64,000 nt of DNA from Rhodospirillaceae bacterium (GTDB taxonomy: Bacteria > Pseudomonadota > Alphaproteobacteria > Rhodospirillales > Rhodospirillaceae), in assembly GCA_947476925.1 (NCBI GenBank), contig CANJSF010000005.1:62001-126000 (forward strand). Direction: 5' to 3'. The notes beneath the pieces were generated by a model. It was given only the letters and a program-made list of their open reading frames with translations, ran no database searches and was not told the DNA's origin. Positions 1,320 through 62,161 of this stretch are shown piece by piece; positions within the stretch are counted from its first letter, which is position 1, and each line of letters begins with the position of its first letter. Both the position numbers and the translations under genes were made by a program.

Positions 1320-1345
1320 AAGCTGAGTTAGAGCGCGCTTTGCGG

Positions 1346-1375
1346 CAAAAATAAAGGCGGCATCTTCTGCCGCCT
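1346..1375 (-). terminator. Rho-independent terminator after the EAL-like gene
   Basis: An 8-bp stem (1355-1362 with 1368-1375) closes a 5-base loop. On the minus strand it is followed by a T-rich run (1354-1346). It lies 26 bases beyond the stop codon of the EAL-like gene. Confidence 0.7.
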
Positions 1376-1401
1376 CGCCGAAGGTGAGATCCTGGGGCCG
1401 C

Positions 1402-2637: not shown

Positions 2638-2897
2638 AGTTGTTCGACAATCCCTCGAAAAAGAGTAAGGCGCTAAGGTCGGCCCGCGCCGTCCCTGGCC
2701 ATTCTCCCACCACATACATTACTATCAAAGGAACATTAAATCATCTTTTACGCCCTCTTGGCACCCATTAACATCCTGAAAAGGCTTAAGTTATTGCCTG
2801 TTTGGCCAGGGCCAGTTAGTTTTGTGCCGAAGCTAATGTGACCAAAATTCATGTCAATCTGCTCAGCAGCGGCCGACCAGCAACAAAGGTAACCACC

Positions 2898-4846: not shown

Positions 4847-4866
4847 GTGCAAGCCTTTCGCTGAGA

Positions 4867-5592: not shown

Positions 5593-5718
5593 GGTCGGTA
5601 CTTCTCCGTGAGAATATGATGTAGACTGTTGTCGGACGGCTGGCCGGGAACCGCAACCCCTTCTTGGTATCAGTCCGCTGTGGAGATGTGTGGGTCGGCT
5701 TGCAATGGGAGAGGCGCT

Positions 5719-6027
5719 ATGAACTTGGATGAGATCGTCGGCGAAATGCAAAAGCAAGCCGAGAAATTAAAGGCCCTCAATCACACCGTGCTGTTCGACC
5801 TGGGCGATGATGGCAAAGTCTTACTCGATGCGACCGGTGATTCCGTGAAAATCACGCCAAACCCTGATAACGACGAGGCTGAAACTACCCTGGTCCTATC
5901 GCCTGAAAACATGATGAAATTGATGAACGGCGACCTCAACCCAATGGTCGCCTTCACCATGGGGCGCCTCAAGGTATTCGGCTCGAAGGGCATCGCGCTC
6001 AAGCTTTCAAGCTTACTCGATCAGTAG
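5719..6027 (+). CDS. SCP2 sterol-binding domain protein
   Basis: 102 residues from the ATG at 5719, preceded by GGGAGAGG. The whole protein is one SCP2-like domain: a helical start, then beta strands such as VLFDLGDDGKVLLDATG, and a C-terminal GRLKVFGSKGIALKL segment that lines the lipid tunnel in this family. Members carry sterols, fatty acids or acyl-CoA in the cytoplasm. It stands about 250 bases before the acyl-CoA synthetase gene on the same strand, so a role in handing lipids to the beta-oxidation enzymes is likely but inferred. Confidence 0.85.
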   Translation: MNLDEIVGEMQKQAEKLKALNHTVLFDLGDDGKVLLDATGDSVKITPNPDNDEAETTLVLSPENMMKLMNGDLNPMVAFTMGRLKVFGSKGIALKLSSLLDQ

Positions 6028-6174
6028 GGACTTCCGAGTCGCATCTAATTTGCTCAGCGCGGGGCCGGCTTCGCCAATGCCCTATGGCCAGCGGGACATT
6101 GCCTGCCCGCGAGAAGTGCCTTTAAGCTACTGATATTCAAAGATTTTGTGCCGAGTGCTCGGTCCTCACGCAAT

Positions 6175-6192
6175 GGTGACGTTAACGTCACC
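6175..6192. promoter_or_regulatory. 18-bp perfect palindrome, candidate operator of the fad operon
   Basis: GGTGACGTTAACGTCACC equals its own reverse complement. It lies 88 bases before the chosen fadD start. A weaker relative, TTAC-N4-GTAA with an internal TAACGT, lies at 6219-6230. A MerR-family regulator is the second gene of the operon and is the obvious candidate to bind here; that pairing is inference. The palindrome also argues that the 6173-6280 stretch is leader rather than coding sequence. Confidence 0.55.
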
Positions 6193-6280
6193 GAATGGCA
6201 TTGAAGTTTCCCCACCGGTTACTAACGTAAGTACTGAAGCGGGCAAAACGAGACCCTCAATAAGCACCGCGTGGGACGAG

Positions 6281-7966
6281 ATGGACGCACCGAACTATCC
6301 TTGGCTGAAGAATTACCCGCCGTTCGCCGATTGGCACGCCCCGATCCCGGTGCTTCCGGCGTATGCGGGCTTTCTGAATGCCGTTAAGAATTACCCCGAT
6401 AATCTATGCCTGGAGTTTTTGGGCAACTGGTGGACGTACGAGGAAGTCGGCCAGATGGCCGCGCGTGCCGCCAAAGGATTTCAAAATCTCGGCGTCGTGA
6501 AGGGCACGCGCGTCGCGCTGATGCTGCCCAACACACATTATTATGTGCTGGCCTACATCGGAACGCTGCTCGCAGGCGGAACGGTTGTGAACGTCAACCC
6601 ACTTTACGCCGACCGCGAACTTGAACACCTGGTCAAGGATGCCGGCGCGGACATATTAGTGACGATGGATTTGGCTGCCATGTACCCCAAGGCACGCAAA
6701 ATTCTTGATATCACGAAACTCAAAAAGCTGATCGTCTGCTCGATGACCGATGCGCTGCCCGCACATAAGGGCGTGCTGTTCTCGATGTTTAAGCGAAAAA
6801 CGTTGGCCGACGTCAAAGAAGACCCCTTGCAGATGTGGTTCGATGAACTGCTGGCGAACCGCGGCGATTATGAGCGTGTTGCCATTAACCCGAAAGACGA
6901 CATCGCGGTTTTCCAATACACCGGCGGCACCACCGGCATGCCCAAAGCGGCGATGCTGACCCACGCAAACGTGACGGCCAACACCCACCAGGTTGCCCGC
7001 TGGTACAACAATGCCGAGCACGGCAAAGAGCGCTTCCTGGCCGCGTTGCCTTTCTTTCATGTTTTCGCGATGACGGTGGTGATGTTATGCGCGTTTGAAT
7101 ACGGCGCCGTGATTATCATGATGCCGCGCTTTGACTTGAAAGATTGTTTGAAAACCATTGCGAAGCGAAAACCCACATGTTTCCCGGCGGTGCCGACGAT
7201 TTTTACCGCCATCAACAATTCACCCGACGTCAAGAAATACGATTTAACGTCGATTAAACTTTGTATTTCTGGCGGGGCCGCGTTGCCCGTCGAAGTCAAA
7301 AAGCAATTCGAGGCGATCACCGGCTGCATTGTCGTGGAAGGTTACGGCCTGAGCGAAACCTCGCCCGTGGTCTGCACCAACCCAACCGTTGGGACGAATA
7401 AAGCCGGATCCATCGGTTTGCCAATGCCCGGCACCATTGTTGAAATTCGCTCGCTCGACGACGACCGGGTACTCGGAATCGGCGAACGGGGCGAACTGTG
7501 CGTGCGCGGGCCTCAAGTAATGAAGGGCTACTGGAACAAGCCCGAGGAAACCGCCAATGTTCTGAAAGATGGCGTGCTGCATACAGGCGATGTCGGCACC
7601 ATGGATGATGAAGGTTATGTCTTCATCGTCGACCGCATCAAAGACATGATCAACGCTTCGGGCTTTAAAATTTACCCGCGCATGGTCGAAGAAGCGATTC
7701 AGCTTCACCCTGCGGTCGAAGAGGTCACCGTGATTGGCGTCGATCACCCTTATCGCGGCCAAGCCCCCAAGGCGTTCATCAAAGTCAAAAAGGGCATGAC
7801 GCTGACGGAAGCCGAGCTGAGAGAATTTTTGAAAGATAAATTGTCATCAATTGAGCGACCGGAATTTATCGAGTTCCGCGACCAGTTGCCCAAAACGCTG
7901 ATTGGAAAGCTTTCGAAAAAAGAACTGAAGCAGGAAGAGTCGGGCAAGGTCGGAGGTGCCGTTTAA
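6281..7966 (+). CDS. fadD: Long-chain acyl-CoA synthetase (FadD-type AMP-binding enzyme)
   Basis: 561 residues from the ATG at 6281. Family members usually begin close to the PNYPWLKNYPP segment seen here; the frame stays open to a TTG at 6146 and an ATG at 6173, which remain possible. The enzyme activates fatty acids to acyl-CoA via an acyl-adenylate. The P-loop-like signature YTGGTTGMPK starts at residue 213, followed by GYGLSETSP, the LHTGDVG core motif and FIVDRIKDMINASGFKIYP. The catalytic Lys is in the final IGKLSKKEL. It is the first gene of a six-gene lipid-degradation operon, and its stop codon is one base from the MerR gene's start. Confidence 0.9.
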   Translation: MDAPNYPWLKNYPPFADWHAPIPVLPAYAGFLNAVKNYPDNLCLEFLGNWWTYEEVGQMAARAAKGFQNLGVVKGTRVALMLPNTHYYVLAYIGTLLAGGTVVNVNPLYADRELEHLVKDAGADILVTMDLAAMYPKARKILDITKLKKLIVCSMTDALPAHKGVLFSMFKRKTLADVKEDPLQMWFDELLANRGDYERVAINPKDDIAVFQYTGGTTGMPKAAMLTHANVTANTHQVARWYNNAEHGKERFLAALPFFHVFAMTVVMLCAFEYGAVIIMMPRFDLKDCLKTIAKRKPTCFPAVPTIFTAINNSPDVKKYDLTSIKLCISGGAALPVEVKKQFEAITGCIVVEGYGLSETSPVVCTNPTVGTNKAGSIGLPMPGTIVEIRSLDDDRVLGIGERGELCVRGPQVMKGYWNKPEETANVLKDGVLHTGDVGTMDDEGYVFIVDRIKDMINASGFKIYPRMVEEAIQLHPAVEEVTVIGVDHPYRGQAPKAFIKVKKGMTLTEAELREFLKDKLSSIERPEFIEFRDQLPKTLIGKLSKKELKQEESGKVGGAV

Positions 7967-7967
7967 A

Positions 7968-8453
7968 ATGCGCACCGCTAACCATACGCATCCCGACGCA
8001 CCACGCAGTCGCTATTATTCTACGGCCGAGTTGGCGGCGGCGGCTGGCGTGACGCCCCGCACTGTGCGTTTTTACGAAGCACGCGGGCTGCTAAACCCCG
8101 ATCGCGCCGGAAACGTGCGCGTTTTTACCTATGCAGACCGGGCACGGCTTTTACTGATTTTGCGCGGTAAGCGGCTGGGGTTCAGTCTGGATGAGATTGG
8201 CAAATATCTCGAACTCTATGGTGCTGATTCCGAGCACATTGAGCAGCTGAATCATGTCGTCAATAAAAGCCGTGAACGCATCGCTGAGCTTGAAGGCAAG
8301 CTACAAGACCTTCAGGTCACCATCAAAGAGCTGCGCCAAATTGAACACGAAGCCATTGCGCGCCTAAAAGTCAAACGTGGACGCAACTCTGCGCCCGCCC
8401 GTCGATTCACAACCGTTTCTGGGGAAACGCACCAAGGGAGACCCAAGTCATGA
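7968..8453 (+). CDS. MerR-family transcriptional regulator, likely of the fad operon
   Basis: 161 residues from the ATG at 7968. A strong GGAGGT lies 10 bases upstream, inside the end of fadD. The N-terminal winged helix reads YYSTAELAAAAGVTPRTVRFYEARGL, the MerR hallmark, followed by the RLGFSLDEIGKYLELY segment. The C-terminal half is a long helix that forms the dimer coiled coil. The metal-binding cysteines of CueR/ZntR types are absent. MerR proteins of this kind (LiuR-like) control fatty-acid or branched-chain amino-acid degradation in proteobacteria. It sits inside the operon it probably controls; its last 4 bases (ATGA) overlap the thiolase start, which suggests coupled translation. 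Confidence 0.85.
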   Translation: MRTANHTHPDAPRSRYYSTAELAAAAGVTPRTVRFYEARGLLNPDRAGNVRVFTYADRARLLLILRGKRLGFSLDEIGKYLELYGADSEHIEQLNHVVNKSRERIAELEGKLQDLQVTIKELRQIEHEAIARLKVKRGRNSAPARRFTTVSGETHQGRPKS

Positions 8454-9586
8454 GCAACGTCGTCATTGCAGGATATGCCCGCTCGCCGTTTACACTGGCC
8501 AACAAAGGCACACTAAAAAAGGTGCGGCCTGATGATTTGGCTGCCGCTGTGGTGAAGGCCTTAGTCGAACGCACCAAGATCAACCCCGATCATATCGAAG
8601 ATCTGGCGTTGGGCTGCGCCTTCCCTGAAGGCGAGCAAGGCTTGAACGTTGCGCGCAACATCGTTTTCCTGGCGGGCCTGCCCAACAGCATAGCCGCCGA
8701 CACGATCAATCGCTTCTGCGGATCGTCGATGCAGGCCATCCATCAGGCTGCGGGCGCTATTAAAATGGGCGCAGGAGAAGCTTTCATTTGCGCCGGTATC
8801 GAGAGCATGAGCCGAGTTCTCATGGGCGGATTTAACCCCATGCCCAACCCCAAGCTGATCGACGCCGGGCACGCTGCCTATATGGGCATGGGCGAGACAG
8901 CCGAAAACTTGGCCAAAAAATACAACATCAGCCGCGTCGAGCAGGAAGCCTTTGCGGTCGAGAGTCATAAACGTGCCACAGCGGCGCAAGCTGCCGGCAA
9001 GTTTAAAGACGAAATCGTGCCCGTCCCCGGCGAAGGCGGCATGGTGGACACTGACGGCTGCATCCGCCCCGACACCACGGCCGAAGGTTTGGCTGGGTTA
9101 AAACCTGCCTTCAACGAAAAGGGCACGGTGACGGCTGGCACATCCTCGCCGCTCACCGACGGCGCCTCGGCAGTGATCGTGTGCTCGGAAGAGTATGCGG
9201 CAAAAAATGGCCTGAAGCCGCTCGCGCGCATTCTCTCGATTGCGGTTTCGGGCTGCGCGCCCGAGATCATGGGCATCGGGCCTGTCATCTCTAGCCAAAA
9301 GGCGTTGAAGCGTGCCGGACTCAAACTGGATCAAATCGACATTATTGAACTGAACGAAGCCTTCTCGGCGCAAAGCTTGGCGGTGGTGAAGGAACTCGGC
9401 GTTGATTTGAAAAAGGCAAACATCGATGGCGGTGCGCTGGCGCTGGGACATCCCTTAGGCGCGACAGGCGCCCGCATCACCGGAAAAGCTGCGGCGTTGT
9501 TGGTGCGCGAGAAAAAGAAGTACGCGCTGGCGACCCAATGTATCGGCGGCGGTCAAGGTATCGCCACCGTCCTCGAGGCCATGTAA
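8450..9586 (+). CDS. fadA: Acetyl-CoA acyltransferase (3-ketoacyl-CoA thiolase)
   Basis: 378 residues. It cleaves 3-ketoacyl-CoA to acetyl-CoA and a shortened acyl-CoA, the last step of beta-oxidation. The nucleophile Cys90 is in NRFCGSSMQ, His334 in GHPLGATGAR and the second Cys364 in TQCIGGGQG, so the catalytic set is complete. Start codon and the MerR stop overlap as ATGA. The fused dehydrogenase/hydratase follows after 13 bases containing AAGGAG. The order and partners make a FadA-type degradative role more likely than an acetoacetyl-CoA biosynthetic one. Confidence 0.9.
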   Translation: MSNVVIAGYARSPFTLANKGTLKKVRPDDLAAAVVKALVERTKINPDHIEDLALGCAFPEGEQGLNVARNIVFLAGLPNSIAADTINRFCGSSMQAIHQAAGAIKMGAGEAFICAGIESMSRVLMGGFNPMPNPKLIDAGHAAYMGMGETAENLAKKYNISRVEQEAFAVESHKRATAAQAAGKFKDEIVPVPGEGGMVDTDGCIRPDTTAEGLAGLKPAFNEKGTVTAGTSSPLTDGASAVIVCSEEYAAKNGLKPLARILSIAVSGCAPEIMGIGPVISSQKALKRAGLKLDQIDIIELNEAFSAQSLAVVKELGVDLKKANIDGGALALGHPLGATGARITGKAAALLVREKKKYALATQCIGGGQGIATVLEAM

Positions 9587-9599
9587 GGAGCGCCAGGCA

Positions 9600-11939
9600 A
9601 TGGCCGACATTAAAAAAGCCGCCGTGATTGGCGCAGGCGTGATGGGGGCAGGCATTGCCGCGCACCTCACTAACGCCGGCGTTCAAGTCATTCTGTTCGA
9701 CATCGTCCCTAAGGATGCCAAAAACAGAAACGCGATCGCCGAAGGCGCGATTGCCAAGCTGATGAAGGTGGAACCTGCCGCCTTCATGAGCAAGCGCAAC
9801 GCCAAGCTGATGACCGCCGCCAATACCGAAGACCACTTAGGCTTGCTGGCCGAGTGCGACTGGATTGTTGAAGCCGTCATTGAGCGCATCGACATCAAGC
9901 AAGACCTCTACAAAAAAATCGATGCCAATCGCAAAAAGGGCTCCATCGTTTCGTCCAACACATCGACGATCCCATTGAAAGACCTCACCGCAGGCATGGC
10001 GGCGTCGCTGGTGCCAGACTTCATGATCACGCACTTCTTTAATCCGCCTCGCTACATGCGGCTGTTGGAAGTGGTCGCTTCAGACAAAACCCGCAAAGAC
10101 GCCATTGAGCAAATTAAGCAATTCGGCGATGTGCGCTTAGGCAAAGGCGTAATCGTCTGCAACGATACGCCCGGATTCATCGCGAACCGTATTGGCACCT
10201 ATTGGATGCAATGCGGCGTGGTCGAAGCCATTAATTTGGGGCTGACAGTCGAAGAAGCCGATGCCATCGGCTCGCGGCCTTTTGGAATCCCAAAAACTGG
10301 GTTCTTTGGGCTGATCGACTTGGTGGGCCTGGACCTGATGCCCCATGTCGCCAACTCAATGCAATCGCGACTGACCAAGGACGATGACTACCAGCGCATT
10401 CATGGCCAACCGGCCGTAATTTCGCAGATGCTGAAAAACGGTTGGATTGGCCGCAAAGGCCCCAGCGGCTTTTACAAAATGAATAAGCTGCCCGACGGCA
10501 CGCGCTCGAAAGAGAGCATCAACCTTAAAACCAGCGCCTACGGGCCCTCGACAAAAGCGAGCTTGGAAAGCTTGGATGCGTCGAAAAAGGGCGGCCTGAA
10601 GGCGCTGGTGGAACACGCCGACCGAGGTGGTCAGTATGCATGGCGGATCGCCAGTCAAGGGTTGGCTTACACGGCATCGCTGGTGCCCGAAATTGCAGAC
10701 ACGATTGTCGATGTCGATGAGGCAATGAAAGACGGCTACGGCTGGGACGTCGGCCCCTTCGAGACCATCGACAAAATGGGCGCGGCATGGTTTGCCGAGA
10801 AATTAGCTAAAGACAAAAAGCCGGTGCCGCCGCTGCTGAAACTAGCTGCCGAGAAAGGCGGATTCTACCGCGTGGACGGGGGCAAGCTGCAATTCCTAAC
10901 GGTGAAGGGCACCTATGCCGACGTGCCGCGCGCACCCGGCGTGCTGAAACTGGCTGACATCAAACGCGCTGGCAAACCGGTGATCAAAAATCCATCGGCC
11001 CGCGTTTGGGATATCGGTGACGGTGTTTTGTGCTTCGAGTTTGCATCAAAAATGAATGCGCTCGATCCGCTGACGTTCGCAGCCTACAAAGACACACTGA
11101 AATTATTCAAAACCAACACGCAATACAAAGCGCTGGTGATTCATAATGAGGGCCCGAACTTCTGCGTGGGCGCCAACATCGGCCTTGCGCTTTTCGCGGC
11201 TAACATCGCGGTGTGGGGCGAAATCGAGAGCATGATTGAAGACGGCCAGAAAACATACCTGGCCCTCAAACAAGCTCCCTTCCCCGTCGTCTCTGCTCCC
11301 GTGGGCATGGCGCTGGGCGGTGGGTGCGAAATCCTGCTGCACTCCGATGCCATTGTCGCACATGCTGAAACTTATACGGGTTTAGTCGAAGTTGGCGTGG
11401 GCGTGATTCCCGGTTGGGGCGGATGCAAGGAAATGCTGTTGCGCATGAAAGCCGACAAAAAGCTGCCGGGCGGACCTATGCCAGCAGTGGCCAAAGCGTT
11501 TGAGATGATCGGCACAGCTCAGGTTTCCAAATCTGCATTTGAGGCGAAGGAAATGGGCTTCCTGCGTTCCAAAGACGTTATCACCATGAACCGCGACCGG
11601 GTTCTGGCCGATGCCAAAGCCAAAGCACTTGAGTTGGTGAATGGCTACCAGCCGCCCAAGGATGCGGTGATCTCGCTGCCCGGCGCGACCGGTGTAGCTG
11701 CCTTGAAACTGGCGTTGGCTGGTTTTGTGGCCACCGGCAAAGCCACGCCTCACGATGTGACGGTGTCGCTGGCCTTAGCCAAGGTGCTGACAGGCGGCAA
11801 GACTGATCATACCGAAACCATTGGCGAGAAAGACCTGCTGAAACTGGAACGCCAAGCTTTCATGGAATTGATGCACACCAGCGGAACCTTAGCCCGCATC
11901 GAGCATATGCTCGATACCGGCAAGCCGTTGCGTAACTAA
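9600..11939 (+). CDS. fadB: Fused 3-hydroxyacyl-CoA dehydrogenase / enoyl-CoA hydratase
   Basis: 779 residues. The N-terminal part is the dehydrogenase: NAD motif GAGVMGAG (11-18), then SSNTSTIP, and catalytic His145 in ITHFFNPPRYM. The second dehydrogenase domain follows to about residue 440. The C-terminal part is a crotonase-type hydratase with the oxyanion segment GPNFCVGANI and the two catalytic acids Glu577 and Glu597, 20 residues apart as in enoyl-CoA hydratase. This order (dehydrogenase first, hydratase last) is the reverse of E. coli FadB and is common in alphaproteobacteria. It carries the two middle steps of beta-oxidation and lies between the thiolase and acyl-CoA dehydrogenase genes. 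Confidence 0.9.
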   Translation: MADIKKAAVIGAGVMGAGIAAHLTNAGVQVILFDIVPKDAKNRNAIAEGAIAKLMKVEPAAFMSKRNAKLMTAANTEDHLGLLAECDWIVEAVIERIDIKQDLYKKIDANRKKGSIVSSNTSTIPLKDLTAGMAASLVPDFMITHFFNPPRYMRLLEVVASDKTRKDAIEQIKQFGDVRLGKGVIVCNDTPGFIANRIGTYWMQCGVVEAINLGLTVEEADAIGSRPFGIPKTGFFGLIDLVGLDLMPHVANSMQSRLTKDDDYQRIHGQPAVISQMLKNGWIGRKGPSGFYKMNKLPDGTRSKESINLKTSAYGPSTKASLESLDASKKGGLKALVEHADRGGQYAWRIASQGLAYTASLVPEIADTIVDVDEAMKDGYGWDVGPFETIDKMGAAWFAEKLAKDKKPVPPLLKLAAEKGGFYRVDGGKLQFLTVKGTYADVPRAPGVLKLADIKRAGKPVIKNPSARVWDIGDGVLCFEFASKMNALDPLTFAAYKDTLKLFKTNTQYKALVIHNEGPNFCVGANIGLALFAANIAVWGEIESMIEDGQKTYLALKQAPFPVVSAPVGMALGGGCEILLHSDAIVAHAETYTGLVEVGVGVIPGWGGCKEMLLRMKADKKLPGGPMPAVAKAFEMIGTAQVSKSAFEAKEMGFLRSKDVITMNRDRVLADAKAKALELVNGYQPPKDAVISLPGATGVAALKLALAGFVATGKATPHDVTVSLALAKVLTGGKTDHTETIGEKDLLKLERQAFMELMHTSGTLARIEHMLDTGKPLRN

Positions 11940-11950
11940 GGAGAACAATC

Positions 11951-13753
11951 ATGGCCACATTCACACCGCCCCTGCGCGACATGAAATTTGTCTACCGCGA
12001 GTTGTTCGACGGTGATGGTTTGCAGAACCTCAAAGGCTACGGCGACTTTACGCCAGACGTCGTCGACGCCGTGCTTGAAGAAGCCGGTAAGCTGGCATCC
12101 GAAGTTCTGTTCCCGCTGAATAGATCAGGCGATGAAGAAGGCTGCACGCTGGAAAACGGGGTAGTGCGCACACCCAAAGGCTTCAAGGAAGCCTACCAGA
12201 AGTTCGCTGAGGGCGGCTGGTGTGGCATTGCGTGCGACCCCGAGTTCGGCGGACAAGGCCTGCCCAAAGCGATCAACATGATGATCGAGGAACTGATTTG
12301 TTCGTCGAACATGGCGTTTGGCATGTACCCGGGCCTCACGCACGGGGCCTATAACGCGCTTGAGCTGTACGGCACCGATGAACAGAAGGCGACGTATCTG
12401 CCCAAGTTTGTCGATGGATCATGGTCAGGAACCATGTGCCTGACCGAGCCTCATTGCGGCACCGACTTAGGCTTGATTCGCACCAAAGCCGATCCACAAC
12501 CAGACGGCAGCCATAAAATTACCGGCACGAAGATCTTCATTTCTGCCGGCGAGCACGACTTAACGCAGAACATTTGCCACTTGGTTCTCGCCAAGCTGCC
12601 CGACGCCCCACCGGGCGTGAAAGGCATTAGCCTGTTTATTGTGCCGAAGTTTATGCCCAAGCCCGATGGCGGCGTGGGCCAACGCAATTCGCTCGCGTGC
12701 GGCGCGCTGGAACATAAAATGGGCATCAAAGCCAACGCCACATGCGTGATGAACTTCGACAACGCCACCGGTTGGCTTGTGGGCGAAAAGCACAAAGGCA
12801 TGCGCGCGATGTTTGCCATGATGAACACCGCCCGCTTGGGCGTGGGCGTTCAAGGCTTGGGTCTGGCTGAAGTCGCCTTCCAAGGTGGCTTGGCTTACGC
12901 CAAAGACCGCATCCAAGGCCGCGCGCTGAAGGGCGCGCAGTACCCCGACAAAGCTGCCGACCCGATTATTGTGCACCCCGATGTGCGCAAGAATTTGCTG
13001 ACGGCAAAGTCTCTCACCGAAGGCGTACGCGCCCTGGTGATGTGGGTGGCTCAAGCGTTGGATCATGCGGCGAAAGCCCCGACGGCAGAAGAACGCCAAG
13101 CGGCCGGTGACCTGGTGCAAATCCTCACCCCCATCGTGAAATCTTTCGGCACTGATGTGGGCTTTGATGTCGCCAACATCGGCGTGCAAATTTATGGTGG
13201 GCACGGGTTTATTCGCGAACACGGCATGGAACAATTCGTGCGCGATGCCCGCATCACCCAGCTTTACGAAGGGACCAACGGCATTCAGGCGCTGGACCTC
13301 GTGGGCCGCAAAATGAGCGCGCATTATGGTCGCTACCTGCGTGCCTTTTTCCATCCGGTACAAGAGTTCGTGGAAAAGAATGCTTCTGAGCCGGGCATGG
13401 AGGAATACGTTCTGGGCTTGGCCAAGGCCCTGGGGCGCTTGCAACAGGCCGTCGGCGCGGTGGCGCAAAAAGGCATGAGCAACCCCAACGAAGCTGGGGC
13501 CGCAGCCACCGATCTGCTCAACCTATTTGGCTACGTCGCCCTGGGCTACTTGTGGGCGCGCATGGCCAAGCTGGCCTTGAGCAAACAAAACGATGACCCA
13601 TTGGGTTTTTACAAAAGCAAAATCAAAACGGCGAACTTCTATATGGCCAAAGTGTTGCCCAAAACCGGCGCGCTGCTGTCGAGCATTCTGGCCGGCGGCA
13701 ACAGCATTATGGATATGGAAGAAGACCTGTTTGGGACTGGGATGGCGGCTTAG
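11951..13753 (+). CDS. Acyl-CoA dehydrogenase, ~600-residue type
   Basis: 600 residues with a TAAGGAG site before the ATG. It has the N-terminal extension and extra C-terminal domain of the long acyl-CoA dehydrogenases (the group that includes DmdC and many alphaproteobacterial FadE-like enzymes). The FAD-contact segment MCLTEPHCGTDLG, the QIYGGHGFIREHGMEQFVRDARI strand and the catalytic Glu440 in YEGTNGIQ are all visible. It introduces the first double bond in beta-oxidation and passes electrons to ETF. With fadD, fadA and fadB in the same operon, the complete cycle is encoded here. Chain-length preference cannot be told. Confidence 0.9.
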   Translation: MATFTPPLRDMKFVYRELFDGDGLQNLKGYGDFTPDVVDAVLEEAGKLASEVLFPLNRSGDEEGCTLENGVVRTPKGFKEAYQKFAEGGWCGIACDPEFGGQGLPKAINMMIEELICSSNMAFGMYPGLTHGAYNALELYGTDEQKATYLPKFVDGSWSGTMCLTEPHCGTDLGLIRTKADPQPDGSHKITGTKIFISAGEHDLTQNICHLVLAKLPDAPPGVKGISLFIVPKFMPKPDGGVGQRNSLACGALEHKMGIKANATCVMNFDNATGWLVGEKHKGMRAMFAMMNTARLGVGVQGLGLAEVAFQGGLAYAKDRIQGRALKGAQYPDKAADPIIVHPDVRKNLLTAKSLTEGVRALVMWVAQALDHAAKAPTAEERQAAGDLVQILTPIVKSFGTDVGFDVANIGVQIYGGHGFIREHGMEQFVRDARITQLYEGTNGIQALDLVGRKMSAHYGRYLRAFFHPVQEFVEKNASEPGMEEYVLGLAKALGRLQQAVGAVAQKGMSNPNEAGAAATDLLNLFGYVALGYLWARMAKLALSKQNDDPLGFYKSKIKTANFYMAKVLPKTGALLSSILAGGNSIMDMEEDLFGTGMAA

Positions 13754-13820: not shown

Positions 13821-14351
13821 ATGAACCTGATCTTCCGTCTGGCCTGGACACTGCTTGGCGCGTGGCTGGGCTTGCGGTGGGGCAAGCCAGTCGGTTTTTT
13901 CGATGAGGTCAAATACAGCTTTCGCTGTTTGCCCACCGACATCGACTTCAATATGCACCTGACCAACAGCCGCTATGCCAGCTTCATGGATATCGCGCGC
14001 GTGGCCATGATGGTGCGCAACGGCGCGTGGGGGAAATTTCGCGCGGCCGGAATGTTACCGGTGCTTGGCTCATTGGCCATGAAATTCCGCCGTGCGGTGA
14101 AGCCGTTTCAGGAGTTTGAGGTCACGGCCCGTACCATCGGTTGGGACGAGAAATGGATGTACCTTGAGCACAAATTGCTCATCAACGGTGACGTGGCTGC
14201 CATTGCGGTGATGAAAGCGGCGTTCCTGGGCCCCAAGGGCCGGGTGAACACTGCGGACTTTATGGCAGTCGTTGGGTACAGCGGCCCCAAGCCCGACCAC
14301 ATGCCTGTGATCGAGCGGCTTGTCGCGTTGGACGACGCGTTACGCGGCTAA
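13821..14351 (+). CDS. Hotdog-fold acyl-CoA thioesterase-like protein
   Basis: 176 residues from an ATG at 13821. An N-terminal hydrophobic helix (about 4-20) precedes a single hotdog domain with the segment DIDFNMHLTNSRYASFMDIAR. That is the 4HBT/THEM6-type pattern (cf. MNNxxY in family members). The Asp of classical 4HBT enzymes is in the D-x-N-x-H stretch. It probably hydrolyses acyl-CoA or binds acyl chains, perhaps at the membrane. It is the last gene of the fad block; its stop codon directly abuts the stop codon of the convergent RND permease gene. Confidence 0.75.
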   Translation: MNLIFRLAWTLLGAWLGLRWGKPVGFFDEVKYSFRCLPTDIDFNMHLTNSRYASFMDIARVAMMVRNGAWGKFRAAGMLPVLGSLAMKFRRAVKPFQEFEVTARTIGWDEKWMYLEHKLLINGDVAAIAVMKAAFLGPKGRVNTADFMAVVGYSGPKPDHMPVIERLVALDDALRG

Positions 14352-16670
14352 CTATTTCTGCTTTGGGGTTGCCATAAAGAAGCGCGCGAGCGCTGGCAGC
14401 AGAATAATCGCACCCAGCATATTTGCGACAAACATGAACGACAGCAGCAAGCCCATGTCGGCTTGGAACTGAAGTGCTGAGAAAATCCAAGTGCCAACGC
14501 CAATGGTGAGCGTCAGCCCGGTCATCACCACTGCATTGCCCGAGATTTGCAACGTTCTGAAAAACGCCTCGCGCAAGTCGACACCGGCATCGAGCATGCC
14601 CTTGAGGCGCGCAAAGATATAAATGCCGTAGTCGACACCAATGCCCACGCCAAGGGCCGCGACGGGCAGCGTTGACACCTTCAAGCCAATGTCGAGCGCG
14701 ACCATCACGGTGTAGCACATGAACGACACCAGAACGAGCGGCAGCAGAATGCAGATTGTCGGCCGCCACGAGCGGAACAAAGCCAAACACAACACGCCGA
14801 TGGCCGCATAAACCCACAACAATATTGGGAATTCATTGGCTTTAATCACTTCGTTGGTGGCGGCCATGACACCGACGTTGCCGGTAGCAAGCTTGAACCG
14901 GTGACGCTCGCCGTCATTGGCGGCAGCAAAGCCTTTGACGGCTGCGACAATGCCTTCAATCGTTTCAGCTTTGTGATCCTTGGTAAAGATCACCACAGGC
15001 ATGACACTGCAATCACGATTGAGCAGGCCTGTGGCGGTATCGATACCCTGCGTGGCCTGAACCAAAAGCTGCTCGTTACGCGGCAGCACGCGCCATTTCG
15101 GGTTGCCTTCGTTCCAACCTGCGTTTGTGAGCTTTGCGGCCTGCGGCATCGAGATCGTGGAACGCACACCTTTGACGTTGCTCATCTCCCAGGCGAATTG
15201 GTCGATCTTGGCCATTACGTCGTATTGAATACATCCGTTTGGGATCGTCTCGACGAGGACCTGGATCACATCTGTGCCAATCGCGAAACTATCGGTGATC
15301 ACAGCGTCGTCGCGGTTATATCGCGAATCAGGGCGCAACTCGGGCACGCCTGAGAGCACATCGCCAATTCGCACGAACTTGGATTGGTAGGCACTAAAGG
15401 CAAAAAGAACCACGCTGATCGCAATTGCGACAGTGGCTTTTTTGGGCTCCGTAAAACTGGCCAACTTGTGCCACAGCGGCTCGCGAGCCGCGGTGGCCTT
15501 GGCGAGACGATCGCGATATTTGGGGCCCAACTCCAGATACGATGCCAATAACGGGATGAGGAACAAGTTGGTGAGAATGACGCAGAACACGCCGATCGAG
15601 GCAGTGATCGCCACTTCTTGGATGATGCGAATATCGATGAGAAGAATCGTCAGGAACCCAAACACGTCGGCCAGGGCGGCCACAGCACCGGTTAGCACCA
15701 GCTTTTTGAAGGCGGTTTTGGCGGCGTCAAAGCCGCTCATGCCCGATAAAATGCCCTCGCCGATAACATTGATTTTCTGCACGCCGTGCGAGACGCCAAT
15801 GGCAAAGGTGAGGAACGGCACCAAAATCGACATGGGGTCGAGGCCAAAGCCAAACACCGTCAGGAAGCCCATGTTCCACACCACGGCGACCAGCGAGCAA
15901 ATCAGCGGCATCAGCATCATGCGCACCGAGTGCGTGAAATAATACACCAGCACCGCAGATATGAAGAACGCGACGATGAAAAAGCCGATCACACCCAGCG
16001 CGCCGTCGGCTACATCGCCGATCACTTTGGCAAAACCAACAATGTGAATGGAAATGCCGTCTTTCTCGAACTTCGTTCGAATATCATTTTCCAGCAGGTC
16101 GGCGACCTTGAAATAGTCGAGTTTCTCACCGGTTTGAGGGTCGCGCTCGACCAACTGGGCGCTGACCAATGCGGCCGTAAAATCATTGGCCACCAAGCGC
16201 CCCACCTGGCCTGATTTCAAAATGTTCTCGCGCACGCGCGCGAGCATTTCGGGCGTGGGGGTAAAGTCAGCCGGGATTACGTTGCCGCCTGCAAAGCCGC
16301 CTTCGACGATTTCGATAAACCGCACGTTCGGCGTGAAGATGGATGTGACAGTCGAGCGATCTACGCCGGGCAGGAAGAACACCGCATCGGTGACCTGCTT
16401 CATGGTAGTGAAGAATTCGGGGTTAAAGATGTCGCCCTTCTCCACCTTGACGGCGATCAACAGTCGGTTCGCGCCGCCAAATTGATCTTGATATTTCAGG
16501 AAGGTTTGAATGTAGGGATGCTTCAGCGGCAACTGCTTTTCAAAGCCCGCGTCGACTTTCAGAAGCGAGGCTTGCCAGCCCAAAAATACGGTGACGACCG
16601 CAAACAACACCATAGTGACGCCGCGATTACCGAATATGATATCGGCGAGACGCTCGACAACGCGGTTCAT
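14352..16670 (-). CDS. MMPL/RND-superfamily transporter (inner-membrane component)
   Basis: 772 residues with the RND layout: one membrane helix (about 14-32), a large periplasmic loop to about 230, a block of five helices, then a second loop and a second block of helices. Helices such as FALGVSHGVQKINVIGEG-like and ALGVGIGVDYGIYIFARL carry the conserved acidic region of MmpL/HpnN-type permeases. It should move a hydrophobic molecule using proton force. It is the last gene of a four-gene operon and its start overlaps the YCF48-like gene by 4 bases, so the two products are probably made together. No membrane-fusion protein or TolC is present. DUF1329 and DUF1302 partners replace them. Confidence 0.85.
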   Translation of the reverse strand: MNRVVERLADIIFGNRGVTMVLFAVVTVFLGWQASLLKVDAGFEKQLPLKHPYIQTFLKYQDQFGGANRLLIAVKVEKGDIFNPEFFTTMKQVTDAVFFLPGVDRSTVTSIFTPNVRFIEIVEGGFAGGNVIPADFTPTPEMLARVRENILKSGQVGRLVANDFTAALVSAQLVERDPQTGEKLDYFKVADLLENDIRTKFEKDGISIHIVGFAKVIGDVADGALGVIGFFIVAFFISAVLVYYFTHSVRMMLMPLICSLVAVVWNMGFLTVFGFGLDPMSILVPFLTFAIGVSHGVQKINVIGEGILSGMSGFDAAKTAFKKLVLTGAVAALADVFGFLTILLIDIRIIQEVAITASIGVFCVILTNLFLIPLLASYLELGPKYRDRLAKATAAREPLWHKLASFTEPKKATVAIAISVVLFAFSAYQSKFVRIGDVLSGVPELRPDSRYNRDDAVITDSFAIGTDVIQVLVETIPNGCIQYDVMAKIDQFAWEMSNVKGVRSTISMPQAAKLTNAGWNEGNPKWRVLPRNEQLLVQATQGIDTATGLLNRDCSVMPVVIFTKDHKAETIEGIVAAVKGFAAANDGERHRFKLATGNVGVMAATNEVIKANEFPILLWVYAAIGVLCLALFRSWRPTICILLPLVLVSFMCYTVMVALDIGLKVSTLPVAALGVGIGVDYGIYIFARLKGMLDAGVDLREAFFRTLQISGNAVVMTGLTLTIGVGTWIFSALQFQADMGLLLSFMFVANMLGAIILLPALARFFMATPKQK

Positions 16671-17647
16671 AATTGCCGCTCCAGGTCCAGCGGATGCACG
16701 CCGTGCTCACCAAACACAATCATCTTATTGGCAGCCGTCTCAAAAACACCCGACAGCGCTTCGCGATCAGGTAAGTTGTTAAGCTGGAAGCTCTTGCCAT
16801 CAATACTGGTCAGAACCGCACCACTGAGACCCACGATATCGATGCTGCCATCTTTGCGTTGCACGCCCCCCATCAGCGAGGCTGTGGTCTCGGTCGGGAT
16901 TTCCTCCCAGGTTTTGCCGAGATTTGGCGAGCGAAATAGATTGCCTTGCAATCCGAATGCCAGCAGTGCGCCGTCGATGAGCGACAACAGGCCAAAATAG
17001 GTTCCATCATAGGGCGAGGATTCAATCTTTGCCCATGTCGCGCCGACATCCGTCGAGCGAAACAAAGCGCCAGCCTCGCCTGCGGCGAACAATGAGCCAT
17101 CGGCGGCGCGCACCAACGCATAGAGGTGTGGTTCATCCTCTGAGATGCGGCGCTCGTCCCATGTATCGCCACCATCGTTGGTCTCTTTGATCAGGCCGTA
17201 AGCACCAATCGCCAATCCATGAGTTTCGTTTTCGAACCACAAATCCATGAGCGGCGCTTCAAGTTCGGGGGACTGGTCTTTGATCGTCCAGGTTTGACCG
17301 CCGTCAGTCGTGCGCAACAATGTCGCGTCATGGCCCGCAGCCACGCCGTTGGTGGCTGAGCTCATCGCCACGGCTGTGAGCATGACCGCTGTGGGTGAAG
17401 AAACCTGCGCCCACGATTGGCCACCGTCGGTGGAGCGCAGAATAAATCCGCGGTCACCAACAGCAACCAGTGCATCGCCCGCCGCAGCGACATCAAGCAC
17501 CAAGGACGATGCCGCCAAGGGGTATGTTTTGGGTGGAGTCTGCGCGCGTGCGGGGGCTAAAAGGCACGAGGCTCCGGCAATTGCCGAAGCCCCGTAACCT
17601 AACCAAACCCGGCGCGAAAATCGTTGCGTCTGGCGGATTTGATCCAT
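16667..17647 (-). CDS. Exported YCF48/BNR-repeat beta-propeller protein
   Basis: 326 residues. A twin-arginine-like start (RRVWLGYGASAIAGA) and Ala-rich cleavage region send it to the periplasm. At least five BNR/Asp-box repeats are visible: RSTDGGQSW, RTTDGGQTW, ETNDGGDTW, RSTDVGATW and RSPNLGKTW, giving a six- or seven-blade propeller. It resembles the photosystem II assembly factor Ycf48 in fold only; no photosynthesis gene is here. Its place between the permease and DUF1329, with a 4-base overlap to the permease, suggests a periplasmic adaptor for the transporter. The ribosome site GGGGGAGGGG is unusually close to the ATG. Confidence 0.8.
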   Translation of the reverse strand: MDQIRQTQRFSRRVWLGYGASAIAGASCLLAPARAQTPPKTYPLAASSLVLDVAAAGDALVAVGDRGFILRSTDGGQSWAQVSSPTAVMLTAVAMSSATNGVAAGHDATLLRTTDGGQTWTIKDQSPELEAPLMDLWFENETHGLAIGAYGLIKETNDGGDTWDERRISEDEPHLYALVRAADGSLFAAGEAGALFRSTDVGATWAKIESSPYDGTYFGLLSLIDGALLAFGLQGNLFRSPNLGKTWEEIPTETTASLMGGVQRKDGSIDIVGLSGAVLTSIDGKSFQLNNLPDREALSGVFETAANKMIVFGEHGVHPLDLERQL

Positions 17648-17670
17648 CCCCTCCCCCGAGGTTCTGGTTG

Positions 17671-19035
17671 TTAACGCACACCCTCGCGTCGAAGCGATTC
17701 AGGCGAGAAGTCGCTGGGCGTCATGGGTGAATTGAAACGCACATAGTCGTCTTTGTCTTTCACGCCGAACGCCAGGTAACGGCCGTTCTGCAAGTCGTAA
17801 TGCGCATGAATGTTGTCCCACAACAGCGGGATTTCATAATACTGCATCAAGTATGCTTCCGAGAGGCGCCAAATTTGGCCGCGCCCGTCATAGCTATCCA
17901 CCACCACAGCTTGCCAGCTGTCTTCATCGAAATAGAACACGCGTTTGGCGTAAACGTGGCTGGTGCCTTGCTTCAAGGTGGCTTCCGTCACCCAGACGCG
18001 GTGCTTTTCGTAACGCACGAGGTCGGGGTTCAAGTGACCGGCTTTCACAACGTCGGCCACCGGCGCGCCGCCATCCAGCTTGTAGGAATTGTAGGGGACC
18101 AGCATCTCGACGCGGCCCTTCAGGTTCCAGTCGTAGCGATCGGGCGCGCCATTGAACATATCAAGTTGGTCGTTGGTACGTTGGCCGTCCGAGGCCGTGC
18201 CGGGGTTATCGTAAGCAACGTTGGGCGCACGGCGAACACGGCGTTGACCTGGGTTATAGGTCCAGGCATTGCGAGGTTCGGCCAACTGATCAAGCGTTTC
18301 GTGGACCAACAAAATCGTGCCCGCCAAACGCGCTGGTGCCGTCACTTCTTGCAGGAAGTAAGCCAAGCGATTGTTGATGCTGGCGATGGTGGCGCCTTCG
18401 CCGTTATAGGCCCACAACACCTTGTCGGAGAACTGAACCGGCGTGAACGAACCATCAGGCGTTGGCACGACTTGCTTCACGCTACGGTCAGTGCTTTCGC
18501 CGCGATAGCGCGTCAGGTGATTCCAAATCGTTTCAAGGCCGTTTTTGGGAATCGGAAACGGCACCGAGCGTGTCGCATTTTTAATACCGTTGCCGCCTTC
18601 GGTGAGTTCAGCCGTTGTCGCGTTTTGAATCACGGCATCGTAAATGGCCTTGGAAAAACCGGCCGAGCGACGTGATGGATAGACCTTCATCTTGAAGGTC
18701 GGATAGCGCTTCAACATCGCCATCTGGCCAGGCGACAAAAGCTCTTTGTACTTGTCGGCGTTGGCACCGGTCACTTCATACAACGGTTGATCGGCGGCAA
18801 ACGGGTCGACGTGCGGCTGGCCTTTTTGATAGCCCGCCGGCGGCTGAATCACCCCGCCCGTCCAGGCCGGAATGCTGCCATCTTGATTGGCGGCTTTCAC
18901 GGCGCCCAGCGGTGTGAGCGTTGACGCCAACTGCGCGGCTTCTTGCGCGGTTACCTTGGCCATAGCTTGGGCCGACAACAAGGTCGCCACCGCGATTACG
19001 GCAGTGCTCCAGGTCAGTTTCGCACGAACAGTCAT
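17671..19035 (-). CDS. DUF1329 periplasmic lipid-shuttle-like protein (LolA-type fold)
   Basis: 454 residues with a Sec signal peptide (about 1-26, ending QAMA) and a GGGGAGG site before the ATG. It is a full-length DUF1329 protein, the family annotated as outer membrane lipoprotein-sorting protein and grouped with LolA/LolB folds. Segments typical of the family are AQLASTLTPLGAVKAAN near the start, an IPAWTGG motif and RVFYFDEDSWQAVVVDSYDGRGQIWR near the end. It probably carries a hydrophobic molecule across the periplasm between the RND permease and the outer-membrane protein. The gene follows the DUF1302 gene after 23 bases. Confidence 0.85.
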   Translation of the reverse strand: MTVRAKLTWSTAVIAVATLLSAQAMAKVTAQEAAQLASTLTPLGAVKAANQDGSIPAWTGGVIQPPAGYQKGQPHVDPFAADQPLYEVTGANADKYKELLSPGQMAMLKRYPTFKMKVYPSRRSAGFSKAIYDAVIQNATTAELTEGGNGIKNATRSVPFPIPKNGLETIWNHLTRYRGESTDRSVKQVVPTPDGSFTPVQFSDKVLWAYNGEGATIASINNRLAYFLQEVTAPARLAGTILLVHETLDQLAEPRNAWTYNPGQRRVRRAPNVAYDNPGTASDGQRTNDQLDMFNGAPDRYDWNLKGRVEMLVPYNSYKLDGGAPVADVVKAGHLNPDLVRYEKHRVWVTEATLKQGTSHVYAKRVFYFDEDSWQAVVVDSYDGRGQIWRLSEAYLMQYYEIPLLWDNIHAHYDLQNGRYLAFGVKDKDDYVRFNSPMTPSDFSPESLRREGVR

Positions 19036-19058
19036 TTGATCCTCCCCAGAATTGCGCG

Positions 19059-20876
19059 TTAGAACGAGTAATTGACGGTAAACGACACGAAGTCACGATC
19101 TTTCAGAAGATTGTAAGGCGCAGCGCCCCAGTTCTTGGTGTAGCCCAAGTTGGCCTGCCAGGCATTTTGGTAGCTGGCGCCTAAGCTGACTGTGACCGAT
19201 TTGCGACCTTCAACGAAGTTAGACACCGGAGACGGTGAGGTGCCGTTGACGTCTTGGTTATAGGCAATTTGCGGCTGCAACGCGATGGAACCAATCGCGT
19301 TGTTGATGTCGCCACGGGCGACCAAACGATAGCCCCACGAGAACGCATCAGCGAAGCCGCGACTGTCTTGCGTGGCGGGTTGAAGACGCAGCGTCGTGAA
19401 GAACGGATTGGCATTGGTGAACGTACCTGGGCCTTCATAGCGCAAGACGTCTTTGCTCTCCATTTTATGAATCTTCATGCCGCCCACTTCACCGACCAAA
19501 GCGATTTGGTCGAAGGGGCCAACATTGGCGAGAAGATGCGTGATCGTGGTTTGAGCCTGCGAATAGTCTTTGCGGCGCCAGCCCTTAATTTCTTGGGCGA
19601 AACTAAAGCGACCGAGCTGATTGCGCCCAAACACCGGCGTGCCCGCCGGGAATGGGAAACCTAAGAAAGGATCAAGCGGCGACAACGCTGCAAACAACAG
19701 TTCAACGTCGTCTACCGAAATTGGCTGGTCCCAGTGATAGGAGTACTCGGCTTGGATCGCAGTGGTTCCAATGGTGGTATTGAAACTTGCGCCGACGAGT
19801 TCGATCCCGTCGGGGAACTCGCGGTTATAAGATGCGGTTTTGGCATAATCTCCCAAAACCAATCCCCCGAACGTGCCTGTGCGTGCGCTCAGCACGGGAA
19901 GACGGCTGTTATACTTGATATAGTAAGCGCCGAATTCGGTGTCATTCAGCTCGGTCGCAAGGTAACGCAGCGCCAGGCCGAACTGGCCGCTATCTTTTGC
20001 GTCGCGGTCTGGACTGCGCGACACCAGCGAGCCAACCGGACCACGGCTGAGCGACGGCGGATTGTCACGGGGTCCCGTGGGCAAGCCAAAGCCCAAATAG
20101 ACGAACTGGCCGCCAGGGCTGGCGAAATCGTTAGTCGCGAAGAACGTGCCCTCGGCTTCGATCTCGGTGTGATCCCAACCCAGCTGATAAAAGCCTTCAA
20201 GCGACAAATTGCCAAAGCCAATCGAGCTTTGGACAATCGGCACCGGCACTACGCCCTCGCGCAATTCCGTACCCGCGCCGCGCAACTTGGTGACATCGAA
20301 CGGATTGACGACGTTGATACCGTTTTGGATGAAAGTGCTTTCACCCCAGCTGAGCACTTGCTTACCAACGCGCACGCTTAGAGGGCTGTCGCCGACATCA
20401 AAGTTTCCCGCCACATAGAGATCAAGCAGGTCGAATTTCAAACCTGCCAAATTTCGGGCGGCCTTATTCAGTTGAGTGCGGTCGAGCGTTTTATCGTTGT
20501 TGATGTAATCGTAGAAATAATTGACGCGTGTAAAGAGCTGAATGTTGCCGCCTTTAATCGACAACTCATTCGTGCCGCGCGCGGCGAGAGACACAAAATC
20601 GCCCTTCGAGAAATTGAGGTTGCCGTTATCACCATTGATGGAAAACGCCGTACCACCGTTGGCAACACCCACCAGCGCCGGGTCACGACCCTTGGTGCGC
20701 ATCGCGCCACCGACCGAGTAGGTGCTATCGAGCGAACCCGTGATGTCGGTTCCCAAATTAAAATCGACGGCCTGTGCTGGTACAGCGAAAGCAAGCAAAG
20801 CAGCCACCGCGGTTGTTCCCGCCAAAGTTGCTGCACCAAATTTCACGGCCTTCCGTTGAACGGAATGAAAAAGCAT
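19059..20876 (-). CDS. DUF1302 outer-membrane beta-barrel protein
   Basis: 605 residues from the ATG at 20876, which has GGAGG 9 bases before it; an in-frame GTG at 20885 would leave no space for a ribosome site. A signal peptide ends at about VPAQA. The rest alternates polar and hydrophobic residues as in barrels and ends FVSFTVNYSF, with the C-terminal Phe used by the BAM complex. DUF1302 proteins are outer-membrane proteins found with DUF1329 and RND permeases. It is the first gene of the operon. It is likely the outer-membrane pore or receptor of the system. Confidence 0.85.
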   Translation of the reverse strand: MLFHSVQRKAVKFGAATLAGTTAVAALLAFAVPAQAVDFNLGTDITGSLDSTYSVGGAMRTKGRDPALVGVANGGTAFSINGDNGNLNFSKGDFVSLAARGTNELSIKGGNIQLFTRVNYFYDYINNDKTLDRTQLNKAARNLAGLKFDLLDLYVAGNFDVGDSPLSVRVGKQVLSWGESTFIQNGINVVNPFDVTKLRGAGTELREGVVPVPIVQSSIGFGNLSLEGFYQLGWDHTEIEAEGTFFATNDFASPGGQFVYLGFGLPTGPRDNPPSLSRGPVGSLVSRSPDRDAKDSGQFGLALRYLATELNDTEFGAYYIKYNSRLPVLSARTGTFGGLVLGDYAKTASYNREFPDGIELVGASFNTTIGTTAIQAEYSYHWDQPISVDDVELLFAALSPLDPFLGFPFPAGTPVFGRNQLGRFSFAQEIKGWRRKDYSQAQTTITHLLANVGPFDQIALVGEVGGMKIHKMESKDVLRYEGPGTFTNANPFFTTLRLQPATQDSRGFADAFSWGYRLVARGDINNAIGSIALQPQIAYNQDVNGTSPSPVSNFVEGRKSVTVSLGASYQNAWQANLGYTKNWGAAPYNLLKDRDFVSFTVNYSF

Positions 20877-21037: not shown

Positions 21038-22642
21038 CTACTGAGTGAGGTCTTCGCCCCTAATGGCTCGGTCGAGGAGCACCAACGACTCTTTAACGCC
21101 ATAGAGCGCGATAAACGAGCCCATCCGCGGGCCCTGGTCTTGGCCCAGCAAAATTTGATACAGCGCCTTGAACCAATCGCGCAGCGACGGGAAGGTTGTC
21201 GGGTGTCGCTTACCCACTTCAAAGACAAGGGTTTGCAGAAGTTCTGCCGTGGGCTCGCCAGTATAGGCGGCCACACTATCGCGTAAATCAACCAGGGCGT
21301 TGATCTCGTCCGCCGAGGCCTTTTTATAGACTTTCGATGGTTTGACGAAGTCGTGGTAGTAGGCAACAGCGTATTTCACCAGCTTATCGAGCAGCGGCGC
21401 TGAAGCTGGCGAACGGCCTGACGCATAGCGCGACACATACGCCCACATGACCTCGGGCCCTTCGGCGTTGCAGACGCCGGCTAAGTTGAGCAGTAACCCG
21501 AATGTGAGTGGGACATCTTCTTTGGGCGGGTTGCCGCCATGGATGTGCCAAACCGGATTTTCCAACTTCTTGGCATCGTCTTCGGCGTGGAACTTTTCCA
21601 AAAAGTCGACGTATTCATCGACCGCCTTGGGGATGACATCAAAGTGCAAGCGCTTCGCGGCCTTGGGCTTTTGGTACATATAAAGTGCCAAGCTTTCGGG
21701 CGGCGCGTACTTCAGCCAATCATCAACCGAAATGCCGTTGCCTTTGGATTTGGAAATCTTCTGGCCCTGTTCATCTAGGAACAATTCGTAAGTCAAATTA
21801 GCCGGCGGAACGCCACCCAGGATTTGGCAAATGCGGCTCGAGAGGCGCACGGAATCAATCAGGTCCTTGCCCGACATTTCGTAGTCCACGCCCAGCGCAT
21901 ACCACCGCATCGCCCAATCGCACTTCCATTGAAGTTTGCAATGGCCGCCTGTCACAGGCGTTACAATTTTCTGGCCAGACTCGTCTTCATAAACAATAGT
22001 GCCCGCCGCCACGTCGCGATGGATGATAGGCACTTGCAATACGACGCCGGTTTTTTTGCACACGGGCAAAAACGGCGAATAGGTCGCACGGCGCTCTGGC
22101 CCTAACGTCGGCAGAATAACATTGATCACGTCGTCATAACGTTCCAGCACGCGCAGCAGTGCGGCATCGAACTCGCCAGACTTATAGCTGACCGTCGAAC
22201 TCTTGAATTCGTACTCAAAACCAAAGCTGTCCAGAAAAGCCTTCAGCCGTGCGTTGTTGTGTGCGCCGAAGCTGTCGTGCGTGCCAAACGGATCGGGGAT
22301 GCTGGTGAGCGGCTTGCCCAGGTGCTGGCTGATCATCTCTTTGTTCGGCACGTTATCGGGAACTTTGCGCAGGCCATCCATGTCATCGGAGAACGTGAAT
22401 AGCCGGGTTTTCACGCCCGGGTTGGCCGCCTCGAACGCGCGGCGAACCATTGTGGTGCGCACCACCTCGCCAAACGTGCCGATATGCGGCAGACCTGAAG
22501 GGCCATACCCGGTTTCGAACAGCACATAACCCTTTTCGGGTATTTTGGCTTTCAGTCGGTCATCCCATAGCGCGCGGGCCTCTTGGAACGGCCAAGCATT
22601 GGACTGTCGAGCCAATGAAGATATGTGGTCTGTGGAGGTCAT
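21038..22642 (-). CDS. lysS: Lysine--tRNA ligase, class I
   Basis: 534 residues from the ATG at 22642; the frame continues upstream but without family similarity. It charges tRNA-Lys and belongs to the class I lysyl-tRNA synthetases found in archaea, spirochaetes and alphaproteobacteria, not the class II enzyme of E. coli. The HIGH signature appears as PHIGT (52-56) and KMSKS as KISKSKGNG. The length fits the family. It is an essential cytoplasmic translation gene standing alone between the DUF1302 promoter region and a divergent helicase gene. Confidence 0.92.
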
Positions 22643-22761
22643 GACGATTACTGCATTCAAAGATGGCCGTGTGTAGGCGGCAGCCCCACCCAGGTCAAGC
22701 AGGTACGACCTGACAAGCACACTAGAGCTTTTGCGGCTTTATATATAAGTGTTCTTTGCCC

Positions 22762-62066: not shown

Positions 62067-62161
62067 GAGTGCTCCCCTGATCACAACACCTATTGTACGG
62101 TGCTCAGAACCCGACAGACTTCCGCTATAATAGCATCTCAGTGAGTTTTTGAACCCCCGCT

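Follow-up and report, generated by a model that had tools for sequence, protein, structure and literature searches.

Closest to the locus described here is AmeABCD of the betaproteobacterium Castellaniella defragrans 65Phen, reported in 2018 as a set of four families of 605, 451, 316 and 787 amino acids (aa), with a HAE3-type resistance-nodulation-division (RND) permease as its last member (PMC6394551). Insertion into ameB led to poorer growth on monoterpenes, deletion of AmeABCD reduced monoterpene tolerance, and in a Nile Red assay mutant cells treated with carbonyl cyanide m-chlorophenylhydrazone (CCCP) held slightly more dye, which the authors read as export; they also placed AmeD in a lineage within HAE3 whose members are encoded in such cassettes (PMC6394551). 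The DNA analyzed here, hereafter the window, is a stretch of 64,000 nucleotides from a Rhodospirillaceae bacterium (contig CANJSF010000005.1, positions 62,001 to 126,000), and its four-gene cassette at 14352-20876 is an AmeABCD-type tetrapartite envelope transporter, a kind already described. The contiguous order DUF1302, DUF1329, YCF48/COG4447-like and HAE3 RND that characterizes these cassettes is found in the window, the sizes are similar (605, 454, 326 and 772 aa), and in both systems the HAE3 permease comes without adaptor or TolC, AmeD having been compared by its description and not by alignment. The settings differ, as AmeABCD lies in a betaproteobacterial monoterpene island, whereas the window belongs to an alphaproteobacterium and its cassette stands beside a beta-oxidation operon.

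Further descriptions come from other catabolic contexts. Operons combining DUF1302, PF07044, COG1033 and COG4447 were assigned to the AphS/AphR/AphT regulons of Betaproteobacteria in 2019, with a suggested role in coping with toxic aromatics (PMC6449761); the four families share one operon there as in the window, but are regulated alongside aromatic catabolism. In Pseudomonas putida, the DUF1302 and DUF1329 genes (PP_0765/PP_0766) together with PP_2018 and PP_2019 were found in 2024 to be required for growth on Tween 20, with a strong predicted contact between PP_2019 and PP_2018 and weak ones joining the DUF1329 protein to PP_2019 and to the barrel (PMC10866462). Going by that description, DUF1302, DUF1329, a periplasmic protein and an RND permease work jointly there too, but from two separate loci instead of a single operon. 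The “Nanopod” cluster of the anaerobic benzene degrader ORM2a (2026) encodes a porin-like protein, DUF1329, YCF48 and MMPL (PMC13101534), and differs by additional universal-stress and hypothetical genes and by its benzene context. DUF1302 and DUF1329 genes are also adjacent in a Delftia phenanthrene cluster (PMC3110197), and a second-hand report gives weaker growth on phenanthrene after DUF1329 deletion. Literature searches combining DUF1329 with steroids or RND returned mostly unrelated work, and one on RND-linked fatty-acid uptake found nothing relevant.

Because the AmeABCD, regulon, P. putida and benzene-degrader papers describe equivalent families, the cassette is of a known kind, and the idea of a categorically new system was rejected. 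The original prediction was right that the DUF1302/DUF1329 pairing is known, but the four-gene set it took to be largely new had been published whole as AmeABCD. What is new here is the conservation of order across several phyla, an intramembrane SHxxQ/DY signature, recurrent beta-oxidation layouts, cassette-free junctions and decayed copies.

A scan of GTDB genomes with a permease alignment (A1) yielded 80 loci, of which 66 had sufficient upstream DNA for a test of gene order. All four genes were found in order on a single strand in 64 of these, and the expectation that they co-occur well beyond this strain thus withstood the check. The gap between the YCF48 and RND genes was 20 bases or less in 49 of the 64 loci. 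One exception (L055) has a permease truncated at its 5' end (residues 191-770 only) and lacks the other three genes; the other (L120, Paraperlucidibaca, 811-8996) has two DUF1302/DUF1329 sets in tandem upstream of one YCF48-permease pair and was complete on inspection, the second pair having misled the order script. By record titles, the loci belong to Alpha-, Beta- and Gammaproteobacteria, Opitutae and other Verrucomicrobia, and Acidobacteria, and 57 records of a plasmid collection contained a permease match. Within the window's own family, close permeases occur in 5 of 61 genomes (G000, the window genome; G001, G004, G036 and a broken copy in G003) and a distant one in G007. In Wenzhouxiangella and kin (L060, L066, L080, L095, L098) the DUF1329 match extends over about 2.8 kb, suggestive of a tandem carrier duplication within the cassette. 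Two loci (L048, L055) lie on metagenome-assembled contigs labelled Candidatus Marinimicrobia, labels which may be wrong because their permease and lysK matches are 71-79% identical to the window locus.

The permease carries S294-H295-xx-Q298 in transmembrane helix 4 (TM4) and D680-Y681 in TM10. H295 is found in all 85 aligned permeases, Q298 and D680 are each kept in 84, and S294 and Y681 each in 83; the plasmid relatives have both motifs in 14 of 14 cases, down to 28% identity. In this lineage S-H-x-x-Q thus replaces the usual acidic pair of TM4 while D-Y is retained in TM10. The aligned chains of MmpL4 and MmpL5 have DY in each half. HpnN is likewise a HAE3-type RND permease of comparable layout, but has no carrier, propeller or barrel partner, and the HpnN proteins of relatives show the reverse pattern, in which TM4 has an acid (mostly as VDF) and TM10 has none. 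As the H295/D680 pattern is conserved in the cassette permeases but reversed in HpnN, the pairing of one acid with a histidine is, judged from aligned sequences, a lineage mark of the cassette permeases. The window permease scored 59.8 bits against the HpnN model, whose cut-off is 751.85, and is not an HpnN protein; TIGR00921 (HAE3) was its best-scoring model, though under its cut-off. Among solved structures searched by sequence, no relative was closer than general RND/MmpL proteins. Transport may be proton driven through the H295-D680 pair, and the near-universal signature offers point mutants for energy-coupling tests.

The four minus-strand open reading frames (ORFs) lie where the original prediction had placed them, with the proposed DUF1302, DUF1329, YCF48 and MMPL families borne out by Pfam and the 4-base overlap of the YCF48 and permease ORFs confirmed at 16667-16670. 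Translation of the DUF1302 gene most likely begins, to judge from the local sequence, at ATG 20876, which has a GGAGG just upstream that overlaps an alternative GTG at 20885; counted from this ATG, its length equals that published for AmeA. Neither a fusion protein nor TolC was found among the neighboring genes scanned, in agreement with the earlier claim, and the cassette does not qualify as a HAE1 tripartite pump of the AcrAB-TolC kind. The propeller has a Tat-like N-terminus (RRVWLG, 17540-17647, minus strand) in common with the close relatives L046 and L047 only. Tat export as a general propeller trait was rejected, since most others have Sec-like or anchor-like N-termini.

Predicted structures were consistent with these assignments. 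The DUF1329 model (predicted local distance difference test score, pLDDT, 86.9) gave target-normalized template modelling (TM) scores of 0.82-0.83 to LolA3 and 0.72 to 4z48, a DUF1329 protein of solved structure, its PF17131 (LolA_like) match exceeds the model cut-off, and as modelled the protein is a member of the LolA-like carrier superfamily. The DUF1302 model (pLDDT 83.9) is a barrel with about 18 strands counted from the DSSP string, and its best Foldseek matches in the PDB were porin and Occ barrels with modest TM-scores. This barrel is not identified as FadL: its sequence matched only the DUF1302 family and not PF03349, and FadL was absent from the 50 listed fold matches. The YCF48 protein matches solved Ycf48 propellers in the PDB.

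Pfam confirmed the neighboring beta-oxidation operon, with a FadD-like AMP-binding ligase, MerR, thiolase, FadB-like fusion, acyl-CoA dehydrogenase (ACAD) and 4HBT thioesterase, and the nearby SCP2 carrier gene is equally real. The end-to-end contact also held, as the permease stop (14352) adjoins the thioesterase stop (14351) with a gap of 0.

The same kind of operon recurs beside the cassette in other arrangements. In Denitrobaculum, Pelagibius and two uncultured Kiloniellaceae, thiolase, FadB, ACAD, DUF1302, DUF1329, YCF48, RND and 4HBT form a one-strand run with FadD upstream; in the two of these genomes that were checked, MerR lies between FadD and thiolase, giving in Kiloniellaceae a codirectional ten-gene run from FadD through the cassette to 4HBT. 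Azospirillum halopraeferens has FadD, thiolase, FadB, ACAD and cassette on one strand, with no thioesterase match at that locus, and in an Acidobacterium ACAD, FadB, thiolase and MerR lie convergent to the cassette. On the permease tree the beta-oxidation label is clustered and requires 5 changes, at least 4 of them forced by well-supported branches. The neighbor census used tblastn with the window's own proteins together with annotated plasmids; on the plasmids of Aromatoleum EbN1 and Azoarcus KH32C the cassette stands beside genes for beta-oxidation or for a fatty acid-CoA ligase, and on others it adjoins aromatic catabolism genes. These neighbors fit a common role in hydrophobic carbon use, with the cargo differing by branch. 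AmeABCD-type systems are widespread, often on plasmids beside degradation genes, with their direction unsettled.

Our reading builds on gene content, order, conservation, the folds of two parts and the repeated coupling to beta-oxidation genes. A hydrophobic substrate would pass the outer membrane by way of the DUF1302 barrel, and the LolA-like DUF1329 protein would shield it in the periplasm and exchange it with the HAE3 permease, whose periplasmic face would be served by the tightly coupled YCF48 propeller. Barrel, carrier and propeller-associated permease would form a hydrophobic route needing no adaptor or TolC, and the four proteins may assemble into one complex, as predicted elsewhere for P. 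putida. In this branch of the Alphaproteobacteria the likeliest cargo would be long-chain acyl or isoprenoid-like carbon, or pathway intermediates, for the neighboring FadD-MerR-thiolase-FadB-ACAD-thioesterase pathway. Part types, predicted folds and mutants of relatives give good support to the hydrophobic route across the envelope that the original prediction proposed; its substrate and direction we infer. That the cassette is an AmeABCD-type transporter handling long-chain acyl or isoprenoid-like cargo for beta-oxidation, inward slightly likelier than outward, seems to us about evenly balanced between true and false. Net inward movement in this branch is slightly favored because the operon starts with an activating ligase.

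A more specific version can be put forward only tentatively, and we rather doubt it: the beta-oxidation-coupled branch would perform FadL-independent, proton-driven uptake of long-chain acyl or isoprenoid acids by an inward RND permease and a LolA-like carrier, in the manner of NPC1/NPC2, with a rearranged His-Asp relay (TM4 SHxxQ, TM10 DY). In NPC1/NPC2 a soluble lipid carrier passes its cargo to an RND-superfamily membrane protein. The comparison concerns how the parts work, as that system is eukaryotic and has no outer membrane, and homology of the carriers is not claimed. An inward-acting cassette would be an unusual RND importer, and where the branch is part of an operon running from FadD to the thioesterase, its cargo class becomes defined and testable.

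Several observations weigh against a beta-oxidation-linked uptake route. At most of the 80 loci a beta-oxidation operon like that of the window is absent from the neighborhood, so the cargo is clearly not constant. No FadL (PF03349) match was found in the window genome, consistent with inward transport, but such complementarity is uninformative as evidence of uptake, FadL being present in 1 of 5 carriers (broken G003 included) and 21 of 56 others. HAE-type RND proteins usually transport outward, and the sole transport assay of a relative, that with Nile Red, was interpreted as export. The permease may then be a tolerance pump that expels membrane-partitioned hydrophobics or toxic intermediates via carrier and barrel, protecting degraders, an explanation we regard as possible but on the whole not expected. 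The lowered monoterpene tolerance and slightly higher dye content of AmeABCD mutants (PMC6394551) and the toxic-aromatics proposal (PMC6449761) argue for it. The dye difference, however, was small and confined to de-energized cells, several mutants of relatives fail to grow on the substrate itself, which goes beyond mere sensitivity, and placement behind FadD in an ordinary beta-oxidation operon suits substrate supply. Poor growth of the mutants thus favors supply and the dye assay favors export; if movement is outward, ordinary fatty-acid catabolism may carry its own export safety valve.

The contact with the operon might instead be coincidental, a mobile cassette having inserted between lysK and the thioesterase gene with a cargo unrelated to fatty acids. 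In its favor, and again at odds with the uptake route, lysK converges on an equivalent beta-oxidation operon in the cassette-free genomes G002, G005, G006 and G022 of the window's family; in G006 about 15 bases separate the ends of the lysK and thioesterase matches. Since the operon faces lysK whether the cassette is present or not, the zero-gap contact says little alone and was rejected as stand-alone functional evidence. The occurrence of the junction without the cassette in this family makes the cassette a 6.5-kb gain/loss unit at the beta-oxidation/lysK junction. A decayed cassette adjoins lysK in G003, of the same genus (L161:5505-6379; permease residues 481-772 only, with a frame change), and in G002, where the junction lacks the cassette, the thioesterase match runs no further than residue 93 of 176 (L157:4173-4451), as expected after a deletion removing the cassette. 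The scarcity of this operon at most other loci also fits coincidence, but the operon adjoins the cassette in further layouts, codirectional runs included, and the clustered label with its well-supported changes on the tree makes coincidence improbable; the beta-oxidation link is still supported despite the weak local contact, as other layouts repeat it. Lastly, the cassette could move a native lipid, such as a hopanoid or a wax, between membranes in the manner of HpnN, with incidental catabolic neighbors, to which the HAE3 permease and LolA-like carrier would be suited. This we consider highly unlikely, as the cassette is patchy within one family, plasmid copies have catabolic neighbors, the intramembrane residues are opposite to those of HpnN, and no lipid-synthesis cluster was recognized next to the cassette among the window genes scanned.

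Table 1. Cassette genes and flanking genes in the window
Feature	Coordinates	Strand	Evidence and remarks
SCP2 sterol-carrier-like protein	5719-6027	plus	PF02036 3.7e-16; 102 aa
FadD-like AMP-binding ligase	6146-7966	plus	Pfam; likely ATG 6173
MerR	7956-8453	plus	Pfam
Thiolase	8450-9586	plus	Pfam
FadB-like HCDH/ECH fusion	9600-11939	plus	Pfam (3HCDH+ECH)
Acyl-CoA dehydrogenase (ACAD)	11951-13753	plus	Pfam
4HBT thioesterase	13821-14351	plus	PF13279 2.6e-22; final gene of convergent operon
HAE3/MMPL RND permease, AmeD-like	14352-16670	minus	PF03176 3.4e-25, two stretches; 772 aa
YCF48/BNR propeller, AmeC-like	16667-17647	minus	PSII_BNR/YCF48 PF14870 4.5e-24; 326 aa; Tat-like signal
DUF1329 periplasmic LolA-like carrier (predicted), AmeB-like	17671-19035	minus	PF07044 1.1e-150, LolA_like 3.5e-9; 454 aa
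DUF1302 outer-membrane beta-barrel (predicted), AmeA-like	19059-20876	minus	PF06980 1.4e-164; 605 aa from ATG after GGAGG
lysK, class I lysyl-tRNA synthetase	21038-22720	minus	NF001968 4.5e-258; upstream flank of cassette

Besides the cassette, the window genome has on contig 36 one more DUF1302/DUF1329 pair, which is divergent (L042:4238-7377); when the whole genome was searched, YCF48 of the cassette kind was matched just once and no further cassette-type permease was found. G006, G022 and G028 likewise have DUF1302 and DUF1329 matches in opposed orientation, separated by a few hundred bases. By analogy with the split P. putida loci, the extra pair of the window genome might work with its lone YCF48-permease pair. 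Near the extra pair lie genes for an extracytoplasmic function (ECF)-type sigma factor and a DUF1838 protein (L042:10883-11851), and DUF1838 is encoded in the window as well (54837-55733).

Elsewhere in the window, two DinB-family genes (44492-44992 and 48181-48684) are separated by a few kilobases that contain M48 protease and sodium:alanine symporter genes. Two methyltransferase-domain genes of similar size (58392-59612 and 59716-60930) are adjacent, and a Rieske oxygenase gene (60933-62084) comes next, in convergent orientation.

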